Shown: in pieces, positions 34,834 through 50,058 of the stretch
Numbering within the stretch: position 1 is the first letter of the stretch
Layout of the letters: every line of letters starts with the position of its first letter
NCBI RefSeq assembly: GCF_012295615.1
Contig: NZ_CP051183.1
Coordinates: 2,507,001 to 2,571,000, forward strand
Direction: 5' to 3'
Length of the DNA stretch: 64,000 bases
Source of the DNA: Bermanella marisrubri
Lineage (GTDB): Bacteria > Pseudomonadota > Gammaproteobacteria > Pseudomonadales > Oceanobacteraceae
Notes under the pieces: model-generated
Told to the model about the DNA's origin: nothing
Database searches by the model: none
The model's input: only the letters and a program-made list of their open reading frames with translations
Position numbers and translations under genes: made by a program

Positions 34834-35240
34834 AATTGAGCCTCCCAATCTGAAAACTCTTCAAAATCTTCTTGCATATAGCGATCGCGGTTCATATTGC
34901 CAAAACTGGGTAGCCTTTTACGAAACCGTTTGGCCTTATGACGCAAGCGGTCAAGCCTTTTGGTGACAGTTAAACTAGCACGATTAGCGGCCTTATCGAC
35001 CACAGCTTGCATTTCACTATCTACATCTTCAATGACGACATCTTGATGCCCTTCCAATTTAAGTAACATCCGGCAGTGTTTATCCTCACCGCCTTTAGGA
35101 CCATTCAAATCAGAAAGTACTACCTCAACTCTTTGAATCTGATCTGAGCGTGATCCAAGCGCAAACTGCAAACGTCGCTTAATGTATTTCTTTAATTCAG
35201 CACTTATCTTTAAGCGACGCACATTAACTATTATTTTCAT
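34830..35240 (-). CDS. Ribosome hibernation/associated factor (HPF/RaiA family)
   Basis: 136 residues with the beta-alpha HPF fold: MKIIVNVRRLKISAELKKYIKRRLQFALG, RVEVVLSDLNGPKGGEDKHC and VVIEDVDSEMQAVVDKAANRASLTVTKRLDR. Short-type proteins of this family bind the 30S decoding region and silence ribosomes. A basic linker (HKAKRFRKRL) and acidic tail (YMQEDFEEFSDWEAQ) follow the core; there is no full long-HPF C-terminal dimerisation domain. Not adjacent to rpoN, the usual hpf site, so this is likely a second, divergent family member. GGAGGAACGACC precedes the ATG. Confidence 0.85.
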   Translation of the reverse strand: MKIIVNVRRLKISAELKKYIKRRLQFALGSRSDQIQRVEVVLSDLNGPKGGEDKHCRMLLKLEGHQDVVIEDVDSEMQAVVDKAANRASLTVTKRLDRLRHKAKRFRKRLPSFGNMNRDRYMQEDFEEFSDWEAQL

Positions 35241-35358
35241 GGTCGTTCCTCCTTCTCTTCTCCATTTTTCATTCTGAAAGCTATGCTATGATGTAAAAAA
35301 CATAAGATATATTCGAATTATCATTCTAGATACTACGATTTTTACGAACATTTAAATT

Positions 35359-36246
35359 ATGATTAATTTCAAACACTTACATTATTTTTGGGTAGTGGCG
35401 AAGCAGGGAGGCATCATGCGCGCCAGTGAAGCTTTGCATATCACGCCGCAAACCATCAGTGGACAAATTCGCTTACTTGAAGAGCAATTGGGTGAATCAC
35501 TATTCGAAAAATCAGGGCGCAACCTGGAGATTACCGATACCGGACGCACCGTATTGAGCTACGCTGACGATATTTTTTCATTAGGGTATGAGCTTGAGGA
35601 AACGGTTAAAAACACAGCCAATCGCACTCAGACACTTAAAGTTGGCATTGCAGATGTGATACCAAAATCCATTGCTTATCGGCTCATTCAGCCTGCATTA
35701 AAATCAGATGGCAGCATTCGATTGGTATGCAAAGAAAATAGTTTAGAAACCCTGCTAGGAGAATTAGCACTGCATAAACTGGATATCGTGATTGCAGACG
35801 GTCCGATTCCTCAGCGTCTTGGTGTTAAAGGGTACAGCCATGCACTGGGTGATTGCGGTATCACATTTTTGGCTTCCCATAAGTTGAAAAACACACTAAC
35901 CGGTGAATTTCCTCTTAACCTCTCGGGAGCGCCCTTCCTGATGCCCAGTGATTTATCATTGGTGCAACCACAGTTATTGCAATGGCTTGATCGTCAGCAT
36001 ATTTTCCCAAGAATTGTTGGAGAATTTGACGACAGCGCATTAATGAAAGCATTTGGACAAGATGGCGTCGGTGTATTCGCGGTTCCCACGGCTATTGCTG
36101 AGGAAGTCATGAAACAGTATCAAGTGGAGACAGTTGGCCAGACAGAAGAAATTCGAGAGCAGTTTTTTGCAATTACAACAGAAGAAACTCTGAACAATCC
36201 GGCTTTAAGAGCAATAAATGAAACCGCTGTTGATTGGCTTAATTGA
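35359..36246 (+). CDS. nhaR: LysR-family transcriptional activator NhaR
   Basis: 295 residues. The N-terminus MINFKHLHYFWVVAKQGGIMRASEALHITPQTISGQIRLLEEQLGESLFEK is the NhaR HTH almost by consensus. NhaR activates nhaA (Na+/H+ antiporter) and surface-adhesion genes in response to sodium in enteric bacteria. No antiporter is adjacent; it is divergent from the hpf-yccA operon across 118 bp, so it may control that operon or act elsewhere. The effector domain (about 90-290) is complete. Confidence 0.88.
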   Translation: MINFKHLHYFWVVAKQGGIMRASEALHITPQTISGQIRLLEEQLGESLFEKSGRNLEITDTGRTVLSYADDIFSLGYELEETVKNTANRTQTLKVGIADVIPKSIAYRLIQPALKSDGSIRLVCKENSLETLLGELALHKLDIVIADGPIPQRLGVKGYSHALGDCGITFLASHKLKNTLTGEFPLNLSGAPFLMPSDLSLVQPQLLQWLDRQHIFPRIVGEFDDSALMKAFGQDGVGVFAVPTAIAEEVMKQYQVETVGQTEEIREQFFAITTEETLNNPALRAINETAVDWLN

Positions 36247-36265
36247 TAATAGATGAAATGGAAAA

Positions 36266-36342
36266 TGGTATCCCGTAGGGAGATGAGACCGCCGAGTATT
36301 GCAGTAAATGGCGCGGTGTCCTAAGAATCAAAGAAAAGAAAA
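36266..36342 (-). repeat. tRNA-Glu-derived 77-bp tandem repeat, copy 1
   Basis: Begins with TGGTATCCCGTAGGG, identical to the 3' end of tRNA-Glu including CCA, and contains GCGGTGTCCTA from its anticodon arm; the T arm and anticodon loop are altered and the D arm and 5' acceptor strand are replaced by A-rich sequence (plus-strand reading). Cannot fold as a normal tRNA. Differs from copy 2 at one base (36300). Confidence 0.9.
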
Positions 36343-36419
36343 TGGTATCCCGTAGGGAGATGAGACCGCCGAGTATCGCAGTAAATGGCGCGGTGTCCTA
36401 AGAATCAAAGAAAAGAAAA
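36343..36419 (-). repeat. tRNA-Glu-derived 77-bp tandem repeat, copy 2
   Basis: Same 77-bp unit as copy 1 with a single T/C change (36377), directly abutting both copy 1 and the CCA end of the intact tRNA-Glu. On the tRNA strand each unit places a U-rich stretch straight after a CCA end, so these could also act as weak terminators. Confidence 0.9.
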
Positions 36420-36495
36420 TGGTATCCCGTAGGGGAGTCGAACCCCTGTTACCGCCGTGAAAGGGCGGTGTCCTAGGCCTCTAGACGAACGGGAC
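36420..36495 (-). tRNA. tRNA-Glu (UUC)
   Basis: 76 nt including encoded CCA. Acceptor GTCCCGT pairs with ACGGGAT; anticodon arm CCGCC-CTTTCAC-GGCGG gives anticodon TTC; T arm AGGGGTTCGACTCCCCT. Transcribed after tRNA-Ala (10 nt apart) as one unit. Confidence 0.97.
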
Positions 36496-36505
36496 ACATC
36501 TTTAA

Positions 36506-36581
36506 TGGTGGAGCCTAGCGGGATCGAACCGCTGACCTCAACACTGCCAGTGTTGCGCTCTCCCAGCTGAGCTAAGGCCCC
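36506..36581 (-). tRNA. tRNA-Ala (GGC)
   Basis: 76 nt including encoded CCA. Acceptor GGGGCCT pairs with AGGCTCC (one G-U); D arm AGCTCAGCTGGGAGAGC; anticodon loop CTGGCAG gives GGC; T arm AGCGGTTCGATCCCGCT. Confidence 0.97.
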
Positions 36582-36676
36582 ACACCACTCTCTTTCTGAG
36601 TTTATTTATCAAGGCTTAATAAATAAATCAGCCAACTTGTGCGCCAAAGGCATACTCGTTGCGAGATGTGGCGAGC

Positions 36677-36704
36677 ATTATACGGATCAAAATTCATTTG
36701 CCAA
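36677..36704 (-). promoter_or_regulatory. Promoter of the tRNA-Ala/tRNA-Glu unit
   Basis: On the minus strand TTGGCA, a 16-bp spacer and a perfect TATAAT, followed by the GC-rich discriminator GCTCGCC typical of stringently controlled stable-RNA promoters. About 90 nt upstream of tRNA-Ala. Confidence 0.8.
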
Positions 36705-36753
36705 GCCCTTTTTCCGCTTTTTTTACGAGGAAAAACAAGCTGTTAGGCGATGC

Positions 36754-37263
36754 CTAGCGTAGCTGCCGCTCCATATGCAGCTGTGCCAGCGCTTGCTTCA
36801 TAGATTGACGCCAATGACTCTGAGGAGCCTGCGCCATCGCTACATGATCTTGACTCAAATCCAATGTAACCGGCAGGTCTAATGCGAGCCAAGTGAAATA
36901 CCCATCACGAAAATAATGGACATTTTCGTACCCCCAATTGACCGCCAAAAAGGTGGCAACAGCACTGCGATAGCACTGCGCGCTGTTGCAATAAATGACT
37001 ATAGGAATATCGCGATCCAACGTCTCAATCAGATATAGATCATTGAAATCACGTTTTAAATCAAGATGAACAGCACTTCGAATATGGCCAAGCGAATATT
37101 CGTAGTCATCTCTAACATCTATGAAGGTCGCCCCTTTTTCAAAAAGTTGAAGCGCTTCATAAGCGTCTACAGTTTGTGCACCAGCGACAGAGTCTATCTG
37201 CTCTGAGTGCACATTTGCGCCCCCCAATAAGACGCCAAATAGAAAGAGAATCTTCTGTATCAT
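36754..37263 (-). CDS. Exported rhodanese-domain protein
   Basis: 169 residues: signal peptide (ILFLFGVLLGGANVHS), then a single rhodanese domain (about 30-135) with TFIDVRDDYEYSLGHIRSAVHLDL and the active-site loop YCNSAQCYRS, where the first Cys is the persulfide cysteine. A helical tail follows. Periplasmic sulfur transfer or sensing is possible; the acceptor is unknown. It lies between the tRNA promoter and the flagellar region with no operon partners. Confidence 0.85.
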   Translation of the reverse strand: MIQKILFLFGVLLGGANVHSEQIDSVAGAQTVDAYEALQLFEKGATFIDVRDDYEYSLGHIRSAVHLDLKRDFNDLYLIETLDRDIPIVIYCNSAQCYRSAVATFLAVNWGYENVHYFRDGYFTWLALDLPVTLDLSQDHVAMAQAPQSHWRQSMKQALAQLHMERQLR

Positions 37264-47743: not shown

Positions 47744-48616
47744 CTACCCACGTACTGTCGACAATACCAAGTTTTCAACAAAAAACTCCAAGTTACCTCT
47801 GGGGGTTGTTGGCAAGGGCCAGCTATCTACTTTTTTTGCTAATGCTTTGAAGGCCAAGGCTGCTTTAGCACGAGGATAGGCCTCAATCACTGGTCGCTGG
47901 CGCTGTACCGCGCGCTTAACAGCATCGTCTTGCGGCACACACCCCACATACTGTAATGCCACATCCAAAAAGCGATCTGTTACTTTAGTAAGCTTAGCAA
48001 ATAAGTTATGACCGTCTTGGCTAGTTTTGACCATATTGGCTAGAATACGAAAACGAAAAACACCGTGATCGCGATTAAGAAGCTTTATCAGTGCGTAGGC
48101 GTCCGTAATACTGGTGGGTTCATCGGTTACGACCACCAAGACTTCTTGGCTGGCTTTCACAAATGACACCACACTGTCACCAATACCGGCTGCAGTATCC
48201 ACAATCAGTACATCCAGTTGATCACTAATCGAATCAAATGCACGAATCAATCCAGCATGTTCCCTTGGTTCTAGTGTTGTCATAGCCTGTGTGCCTGAAG
48301 CAGCGGGAATAATACGTATACCACCTGGGCCATTGACCATGACATCACGGAGACTGGCTTCCCCAGAAATAACGTTGCTGATATTTTCTTTAGTGGTCAG
48401 CCCCAATAACACGTCAATATTAGCGAGTCCCAAATCCGCATCCAAAACCACAACTCTTCGCCCCATCTCTGCAAGAGCGATTGCCAAGTTGACTGACACG
48501 TTACTTTTACCAACGCCTCCCTTACCGCCGGTCACCGCGATTACTTGAACTGGATGCATGGATTGGTTATCTCCTTTGTTCTGTCGGTAAGCATCTAGGC
48601 TATACAACTCGCTCAT
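47744..48616 (-). CDS. flhG: Flagellar number regulator FlhG (FleN/YlxH)
   Basis: MinD-like ATPase that limits flagellar number, in Pseudomonas by antagonising FleQ. 290 residues from ATG 48616, which overlaps the flhF stop as ATGA and has GGGAG seven nt upstream (a GTG six nt earlier is possible). The N-terminal DQAGGLR-type activating region is represented by SLDAYRQNK; Walker A VTGGKGGVGKSNVSVNLA, DADLGLANIDVLLGL and VDTAAGIGDSVV follow. The C-terminus carries the membrane-targeting helix region. Confidence 0.93.
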   Translation of the reverse strand: MSELYSLDAYRQNKGDNQSMHPVQVIAVTGGKGGVGKSNVSVNLAIALAEMGRRVVVLDADLGLANIDVLLGLTTKENISNVISGEASLRDVMVNGPGGIRIIPAASGTQAMTTLEPREHAGLIRAFDSISDQLDVLIVDTAAGIGDSVVSFVKASQEVLVVVTDEPTSITDAYALIKLLNRDHGVFRFRILANMVKTSQDGHNLFAKLTKVTDRFLDVALQYVGCVPQDDAVKRAVQRQRPVIEAYPRAKAALAFKALAKKVDSWPLPTTPRGNLEFFVENLVLSTVRG

Positions 48617-50058
48617 GACCACACTCCCTGAGCTTCTGCCTCATCCTGCGACGCTTGTTCTTGCTTCGCCATTACAACGGCGCGCTTAACTAATGCCTTG
48701 GCACTGGCCACATGAAAATCGTCTGGTATGCGCTGGCCGTCGGTCGCATAAGACAAATCTAAACCACTCTCTAATAATGCACTTAGCGCATCACCTAAAC
48801 TGCTGGCCTCATCTAGCTTGGTCAGAACACAGCCGCCTATTCCGGCTGCTTTATAATTATGATAGACCTTACGTAAGACTCTGCTGGTACTAGTGGCGGG
48901 TAATGTTAATAAGGTATGAACACGGCCTCGCAAAGAAGCCAGCTGTTCTAATTGATAGTTCAGCATTGGGTGCTGTGGCGTCAAACCAGCGGTATCAATG
49001 AGCACAAGATCACAGTCACTCAGCTCATCAAGGCACTTGCTCAAGGTATGCTCCTGATCTGCCACCTGCACTGGAACACCTAATATTTGTCCCAACGTTT
49101 TAAGCTGATCATGGGCCGCTAAACGATAATTATCCATGGTCACGAGGCCAATGCTGGCGTTTTCGTGTTCCAATGTAAAACGCACCGCCATTTTCGCGAT
49201 GGTCGTGGTTTTACCGGCACCGGTTGGCCCAACCATGGCATAAACACCGCCGCGTTTCAGTCGATCACTGGGGCTAATATTCATATGCTGAACTAAGTCT
49301 TGCAGGATTAATTGCCAAGCGCCTTTTTCATCTGCGTGACTGACAACGTCATGCACCAATTGGTAAATCACCCAATCATCAAACCCCATGTTTTCCAATC
49401 GTTGCCAGAACTTTGCTTGCAGTGCATTGGCTGGTGCGTATTTTTTCCAAACAAAATTGGCTGGTTGCTGTAGTGCTTTTTGTCCATCTCCGCACAACAT
49501 TTCTTTCAAGTCATGTAGCTCATTGCGCATATCATCAAGCATGGCGAGGCGTTCTTGCTTTTGCTGTGCCTTAGGCTCACGTTGCAGAGGCTGCACAGGA
49601 TCTAATTGGCTATCTCGACGCGTTTTCATTTCGTCCAGTGCCATACGCAATGCTTCTTTATCTTGGCTGGCACTAATAGTTTTTGCACTTCCGCCATCAC
49701 GCTGGCGCTTCATGGTTTCCAACTGTTCTTGAAGTTGCAGCTGTTCATTAACCTGTTTTCGTTCATCATCCGATAGGAACGGCCATGGTTCTTTTTCTTT
49801 ACGACGCTCTTGCGTATTTTTATCGCGAGAAAAAGTAGGTGAAGGTAAATGGCTGTCATCCACTTCGCCGTCTTCAGTAAATGCCATTGGCGGAGCAGAG
49901 GTTTTCGCACTAGAAGGTTCGTAGTTCTGCGCCACGATAATCTCGACACCGCCTTTCACTCTATGATTAGACAGAATGACGGCATCCGGGCCCATTTCAT
50001 CGCGCACGGTTTTCAGCGCTTTTTGCATACTGCTGGCGGTAAAACGACGAACTCTCAT
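48613..50058 (-). CDS. flhF: Flagellar placement GTPase FlhF
   Basis: SRP-family GTPase that directs flagella to the pole. 481 residues: basic N-terminal B domain (MRVRRFTASSMQKALKTVRDEMGPDAVILSNHRV), a long charged linker, N domain (about 220-270) and G domain with MVGPTGAGKTTTIAKMAVRF (P loop), TMDNYRLAAHDQLKTLGQIL, LIDTAGL and LTKLDEASSLGDALS. Gene order flhA-flhF-flhG-fliA is conserved in polar flagellates. Confidence 0.95.
   Translation of the reverse strand: MRVRRFTASSMQKALKTVRDEMGPDAVILSNHRVKGGVEIIVAQNYEPSSAKTSAPPMAFTEDGEVDDSHLPSPTFSRDKNTQERRKEKEPWPFLSDDERKQVNEQLQLQEQLETMKRQRDGGSAKTISASQDKEALRMALDEMKTRRDSQLDPVQPLQREPKAQQKQERLAMLDDMRNELHDLKEMLCGDGQKALQQPANFVWKKYAPANALQAKFWQRLENMGFDDWVIYQLVHDVVSHADEKGAWQLILQDLVQHMNISPSDRLKRGGVYAMVGPTGAGKTTTIAKMAVRFTLEHENASIGLVTMDNYRLAAHDQLKTLGQILGVPVQVADQEHTLSKCLDELSDCDLVLIDTAGLTPQHPMLNYQLEQLASLRGRVHTLLTLPATSTSRVLRKVYHNYKAAGIGGCVLTKLDEASSLGDALSALLESGLDLSYATDGQRIPDDFHVASAKALVKRAVVMAKQEQASQDEAEAQGVWS

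Follow-up and report, generated by a model that had tools for sequence, protein, structure and literature searches.

A variant of the tyrT-type tRNA tail repeat behind tRNA-Glu in Bermanella marisrubri

Directly behind the tRNA-Glu(TTC) gene of Bermanella marisrubri lie two tandem 77-bp units, each with the tail of that tRNA, unchanged, at its end. The array is a variant of the tyrT-type tRNA tail repeat. It is found in the window, i.e., the whole stretch of 64,000 nucleotides that was analysed (contig NZ_CP051183.1, positions 2,507,001 to 2,571,000 of the forward strand), and window coordinates are used throughout. We consider it likely that the 3′ trailer of the tRNA-Ala/tRNA-Glu operon here holds tRNA tail units in tandem, derived from a partial tRNA copy that decayed, was duplicated again by slippage and is co-transcribed with the operon, the product being most likely trailer RNA, if anything.

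The repeats at E. coli tyrT have been regarded, from the 1970s onwards, as an oddity of a single operon. The present data indicate that in at least one gammaproteobacterial genus many tRNA genes are followed by repeats of the tyrT layout, and that the RtT family itself occurs after Ser, Gln, Arg, and Tyr tRNAs, in most cases with the tail of the local tRNA. It is this recurrence of the layout behind many tRNA genes that lifts the finding above routine: since so many tRNA loci carry such repeats, both their origin (slippage, conversion, or mobility) and their function (termination, processing, or small RNA) can be tested across loci.

Architecture of the array at tRNA-Glu(TTC)

The operon is read from the minus strand. 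A consensus scan places a sigma-70-like promoter (TTGGCA, 16 nt, TATAAT; 11/12; 36677..36704), by itself no proof of function, 5′ of the first gene, tRNA-Ala(GGC) (36506..36581), which is followed by tRNA-Glu(TTC) (36420..36495), the parent of the units; both genes are called by ARAGORN and by Rfam. Unit 1 (36343..36419) is joined directly to the CCA of tRNA-Glu, and unit 2 (36266..36342) directly to unit 1, all in the transcribed direction. Tandem Repeats Finder reports 36261–36434 with a period of 77, 98% matches, no indels, and a score of 341, while comparison of the units finds a sole difference, G/A at unit position 43 (36377 versus 36300). The original prediction of two abutting 77-bp units with one differing base and an exact period is thus confirmed. 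Both the tRNA-Glu CCA and that of unit 1 are followed by TTTTC, and the TTTTCC after unit 2 (36260..36265) is the remnant of this shared trailer start. The limit of the array, not part of it, is a convergent regulator gene from the open reading frame list, of LysR type according to its translation (35359..36246, plus strand), whose stop codon and the end of unit 2 are 19 bp apart.

On the transcribed strand the unit has the layout TTTTCTTTTCTTTGATTC-TTAGGACACCGCGCCATTTACTGCGATA-CTCGGCGGTCTCATCT-CCCTACGGGATACCA, where the second block is tRNA-Glu 21–46 with substitutions and the last 15 nt are the exact tail. The best local alignment pairs tRNA-Glu 21–46 with unit 20–46 (score 27, reached by none of 300 shuffles) and locates this diverged stretch, the end of the D arm plus the anticodon arm, at 36374..36400 in unit 1 and at 36297..36323 in unit 2. 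The tails, composed of the acceptor 3′ strand and CCA, are at 36343..36357 and 36266..36280 by both local alignment and the tail test (see below), and end exactly 77 and 154 nt past the tRNA CCA. A unit therefore retains tRNA-Glu positions ≈21–46 in diverged form and 62–76, including CCA, in exact form; the 5′ third is absent, with no 5′ acceptor strand and little of the D arm left, and the T arm has lost its 5′ strand. The anatomy first proposed from the sequence, namely, acceptor 3′ strand, CCA, and part of the anticodon arm without a 5′ acceptor strand or D arm, was correct, with the D arm mostly rather than wholly missing. No GGTTCGA remains in the unit, and the score for an inverted tail copy is not above that of shuffles (p 0.14–0.17). 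An insert in the anticodon loop of the window Glu unit was also considered and dropped, because the best alignment passes without a large gap; such an insert is clear only in the Arg-CCT units and the Shewanella copies described below.

Neither ARAGORN nor the Rfam tRNA model at E ≤ 10 calls the window units, and a functional second tRNA in the array was rejected for want of a match to a tRNA model. The units likewise match no Rfam family. Their folding is no better than that of shuffles (z −0.15 and −0.40), and a structured small RNA, as judged by folding, was rejected because the units are shuffle-like. A scan for intrinsic terminators, which is blind to hairpins with bulges or long loops, gave none in 35200–37000. 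The composition of the unit RNA is skewed: within the window its C/G of 1.70 ranks at the 97th percentile and its YC dinucleotides at the 98th.

Tail units behind other tRNA genes

Six genomes with 274 tRNA genes, one genome per species, were put through a tail test, defined as 10 nt or more of the tRNA's own tail recurring without mismatch no more than 600 nt downstream, with tRNA genes masked. Such copies lie downstream of 23/274 tRNA genes and upstream of 0/274, which excludes chance (Fisher p = 1.5e-7, although genes of the same cluster are not independent); counted by locus, the numbers are 17 and 0. As the test requires exact identity, older units are missed by it. B. marisrubri itself has tail copies at 9 of its 46 tRNA genes, in seven loci: Glu, Asp, Arg-CCT, two fMet, and two further CAT tRNAs. 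Each of the seven carries one or two units downstream, ending in at least 12 nt of the local tail, and none upstream, and two additional loci have 9-nt tails. The counts for the sister species are 6/47 and 4/41; a genome from a second genus of the family has 4/48, and the remaining two, which are more distant, give 0/50 and 0/42. A tandem amplification of a decayed tRNA, one of the options raised at the outset, is supported by these data, and the phenomenon is broader than was supposed, with such units standing behind many tRNA genes of the genus. A literature search of limited scope found no paper on multi-tRNA tail repeats, from which we do not claim that RtT behind several tRNAs is unreported.

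The units vary in length from locus to locus. In B. marisrubri there are two of 80 bp behind Asp and two identical ones of 84 bp behind Arg-CCT, with 102 + 99 bp behind Met, 101 + 100 bp behind one fMet gene, 89 bp behind the other, and 127 bp behind another CAT tRNA; in the sister species units follow Met (97/98/98), fMet, Ser-GGA, Arg-CCG, and Phe. Most of the units other than those of Glu consist of the T arm 5′ strand (GGTTC...), an insert in place of the T loop, and the tail with its CCA. The Ser, Arg-CCG, and Gly units, like those of E. coli tyrT, are also preceded by the T arm and tail in inverted form. The Arg-CCT units have their insert in the anticodon loop, and it is partly conserved (GTGACTAAGCGGCA) between two species. 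Units behind Met, fMet, Ser, and Phe can each carry, in addition, a hairpin and U-run after the CCA, so that a terminator-like stretch is repeated along with the unit. Stacked terminators of this kind, with hairpins repeated together with the tail units, were observed behind Met, fMet, and Ser tRNAs (L143, L133, and L140 in genome G005; L152 and L158 in G003; L052 and L071 in B. marisrubri). On folding, terminator-like hairpins appear in the Met and fMet trailers, yet the terminator scan of the Met locus lists none.

The fMet loci bear on how the tails are kept. The two fMet genes of B. marisrubri differ in their tails (GGCCCCCGCAACCA versus GGCCTCCGCAACCA), and each unit matches its own gene, while the bodies of the fMet units (CGGTTCACT...) are alike between species. 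Tails that follow the local gene, combined with bodies that resemble each other across species, are as expected for old units with homogenised tails, and so support exchange. The two ends of the tRNA do not behave alike: in the genus, tails are found downstream of 19/134 tRNA genes and heads upstream of 3/134. If slippage alone were at work, something would have to favour the 3′ side or remove copies on the 5′ side, where the promoters are. The rare upstream copies, of the first 11–17 nt of the tRNA, are at tRNA-Ser(GGA) (L140) and tRNA-Leu(CAA) (L139, L156).

Other tRNA-Glu loci and pseudo-tRNA clusters

A related unit of 72 bp is present at a second Glu locus of B. marisrubri, behind tRNA-Glu in an operon of the order Glu-[unit]-Gly-Glu-Gly (C1:2033.2–2033.6 kb). 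It has TTAGGACACCGCGC...CGGCGG...GGGATACCATTTTC in common with the window unit, and both have features that are absent from the tRNA, namely, TTAGG instead of CTAGG, and CACCGCGC. On the basis of these shared non-tRNA features, the two kinds of Glu unit probably have a common history beyond that of the tRNA itself. The 72-bp unit folds better than shuffles (z −3.08). Among the relatives, the sister species G003 has a diverged Glu unit without a tail in a Glu-Gly spacer, and the tRNA-Glu loci of G005 have no Glu unit. The window Glu units are not conserved among the sister species examined, several of whose genomes are fragmented, with contigs often ending at tRNA-Glu. Downstream of a Glu-Gly operon we also observed a pentanucleotide run, (GAACG)4.4, at L007:5119–5140.

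Degenerate tRNA copies inside tRNA clusters are not new, pseudo-tRNA genes being found within the Photobacterium tRNA-Pro/His cluster. Two Shewanella species have a full-length pseudo-tRNA-Glu in an Ala-Glu cluster (L256:2643–2730 and L272:1366–1452), which in both species carries the same insert in the anticodon loop (ACTTTGGTTTATAAAGAGT), with altered T loops and a mostly retained acceptor stem. These clusters resemble the window in having degenerate tRNA copies in tandem within a tRNA operon and changes in the anticodon arm. The difference is that the Shewanella copies are full-length, with a 5′ acceptor strand, whereas the window units have no 5′ third.

Relationship to the E. coli tyrT repeats and the RtT family

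At E. coli tyrT/tyrV the units are 178 bp long and end in 19 nt of tRNA-Tyr, and are annotated RttR/RtT (small RNA RttR; Rfam RF00391); at tyrT the 19-nt tail copies are at +178, +356, and +534. The window array has the same plan, with tandem units directly 3′ of the tRNA, in the same orientation, and with exact ends of the tRNA's own tail including CCA, here as 15-nt copies at +77 and +154. A further likeness is that the E. coli tyrT operon has one copy inside the operon between tRNA genes, as does the second Glu operon of B. marisrubri. The window units differ in their length of 77 bp, in the tRNA (Glu), in having a part of the anticodon arm instead of the T arm 5′ strand, and in the absence of the RtT core in the T loop and of the upstream inverted tail copy. 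The RtT covariance model has no match at E ≤ 10 in window positions 36200–36600 and none at E ≤ 0.01 in the B. marisrubri genome. As far as can be judged from sequence, then, the window Glu units are neighbours of the RtT family in architecture and not members of it.

The RtT family itself reaches well beyond Tyr. In two sister species the model aligns along its entire length to the Ser(GGA) units, though with weak scores (best E 0.002), and it scores above its curated cut-off in 9/42 genomes of the family, where the hits that adjoin a tRNA follow tRNA-Ser(GGA) and tRNA-Arg(ACG). At E ≤ 1e-5 it is found in 16 of 143 sampled gammaproteobacterial genomes, with the units following Ser, Gln, and Tyr tRNAs and closing, in most cases, with 18–19 nt of the local tRNA tail, starting from (A)ATCC in the T loop; the RtT core sits exactly in the T loop of the tail copy, GGTTCGA|AATCC. 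In an alignment of 14 RtT units the core is conserved and a pairing strand differs from one host tRNA to another; both-side changes affect 7 of the 20 predicted pairs. In all, Rfam RtT elements were noted behind Ser, Gln, Arg, and Tyr tRNAs in the family and the class (L273–L289, L293–L312).

A conserved core with a host-matched pairing strand, recurring after several tRNAs mostly with 18–19 nt of local tail, would suit a family of mobile elements with tRNA loops as their targets, where the RtT core enters the T loop and the Glu and Arg-CCT units are the anticodon-arm variant; the anticodon-loop inserts of the Arg-CCT units and of the Shewanella pseudo-tRNA-Glu point the same way. We regard this account of the units as highly unlikely: no transposase, circular form, or pair of empty and filled sites came to light, and in the window Glu units, which lack the RtT core, the alignment to the tRNA is free of large inserts. 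Cast more widely, all tRNA tail units including RtT might form one gammaproteobacterial element family, which would lodge behind tRNA genes at particular points in the loops (the T loop, or for Glu and Arg-CCT the anticodon arm) and acquire or keep the exact local tail, so moving between tRNA genes harmlessly, a conjecture that we find quite improbable.

The array is very unlikely to be a set of attachment sites

The 3′ ends of tRNA genes are common attachment sites, and the original prediction had raised the possibility of stacked attachment-site remnants, left by successive integrative elements at the 3′ end of tRNA-Glu. The exact tail copy at the end of each window unit agrees with this, since attL/attR of islands and phages also leave a second copy of a tRNA 3′ end behind the gene. 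B. marisrubri moreover provides a genuine case, a 9.8-kb island at tRNA-Leu(TAA) (C1:1696415–1706231; L254, L255) with its integrase beside the tRNA, which served as a positive control. Here the tRNA tail recurs 9.8 kb off in the direct repeat attR, with clean identity from the anticodon arm to CCA over about 58 nt and with intact loops. The window units, in contrast, are degenerate inside and repeat in tandem with an exact period of 77 bp, with no element between the copies and no tyrosine-type integrase nearby. Tyrosine-recombinase (PF00589) matches in the genome number only three, at 1.70, 1.74, and 2.08 Mb, whereas the units are at 2.54 Mb, ≈470 kb from the nearest; nor does the unit match anything in collections of phage, plasmid, or viral contigs. 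The tail units at seven tRNA loci are without integrases of the tyrosine type. With the tyrosine-recombinase positions, the mobile-element collections, and the real island of the same genome all telling against it, this explanation was dropped as extremely improbable. A downstream duplicate of a tRNA 3′ end is thus not by itself evidence of integration.

Origin and possible roles of the units

For the tail-unit array in the tRNA-Ala/tRNA-Glu trailer, we infer an origin by slippage, homogenisation of the tails, and co-transcription of the units. A partial copy of tRNA-Glu would have arisen downstream of the gene and then lost its 5′ third and T arm, after which slippage, or else unequal exchange, at the matching boundaries of tail plus TTTTC would have duplicated the whole 77-bp block. 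Repeated exchange with the parent gene would hold the 15-nt tail identical to that of the living tRNA while the interior drifts, and the units would be read through as part of the tRNA precursor. Units of the tyrT kind evidently come and go and are dispensable, as their number at E. coli tyrT ranges from 4 to 0 among strains (H1–H60), and as rtT RNA is given as a 175-bp VNTR in a comparison of Salmonella Paratyphi A and Typhi (PMC2658671).

Could the units encode a processed small RNA with a regulatory or sponge activity in trans? This has been suggested for rtT RNA, and the leuZ 3′ external transcribed spacer does have such a trans function. The position of the window units downstream in the transcribed direction and the annotation of their E. 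coli counterpart as the small RNA RttR would both fit, as would the better-than-shuffled folding of the 72-bp Glu unit and the reported up-regulation of the RtT sRNA in the cold in Thioalkalivibrio (PMC8092127). The window units themselves are the weaker candidates, being shuffle-like in folding, outside all Rfam families, and not conserved among the sister species, and E. coli strains are viable with zero RtT units. As an explanation of the array, a trans-acting RNA from the units is unsupported, and we hold it to be unlikely. The option of tRNA-like transcripts from the array, also raised at the outset, has the transcribed direction of the units in its favour, and their shuffle-like folding and the absence of any match to the tRNA model or another Rfam family against it.

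For a trailer RNA, a speculative role in termination or processing can be put forward; the lack of an intrinsic terminator in the area and the C-rich, G-poor, weakly folded unit RNA speak in its favour. The repeated CCA/TTTTC boundaries might serve 3′ processing, and the C-rich, G-poor stretch might let Rho stop transcription before the convergent LysR gene. In E. coli, the tyrT repeat region is a Rho-dependent terminator. The unit of the second Glu operon sits between tRNA genes, which argues that a Glu unit is not an obligatory terminator. Elsewhere in the window, one other short repeat was seen, a 19-bp repeat of 2.1 copies (48004–48043) within a minus-strand open reading frame (47744–48622).
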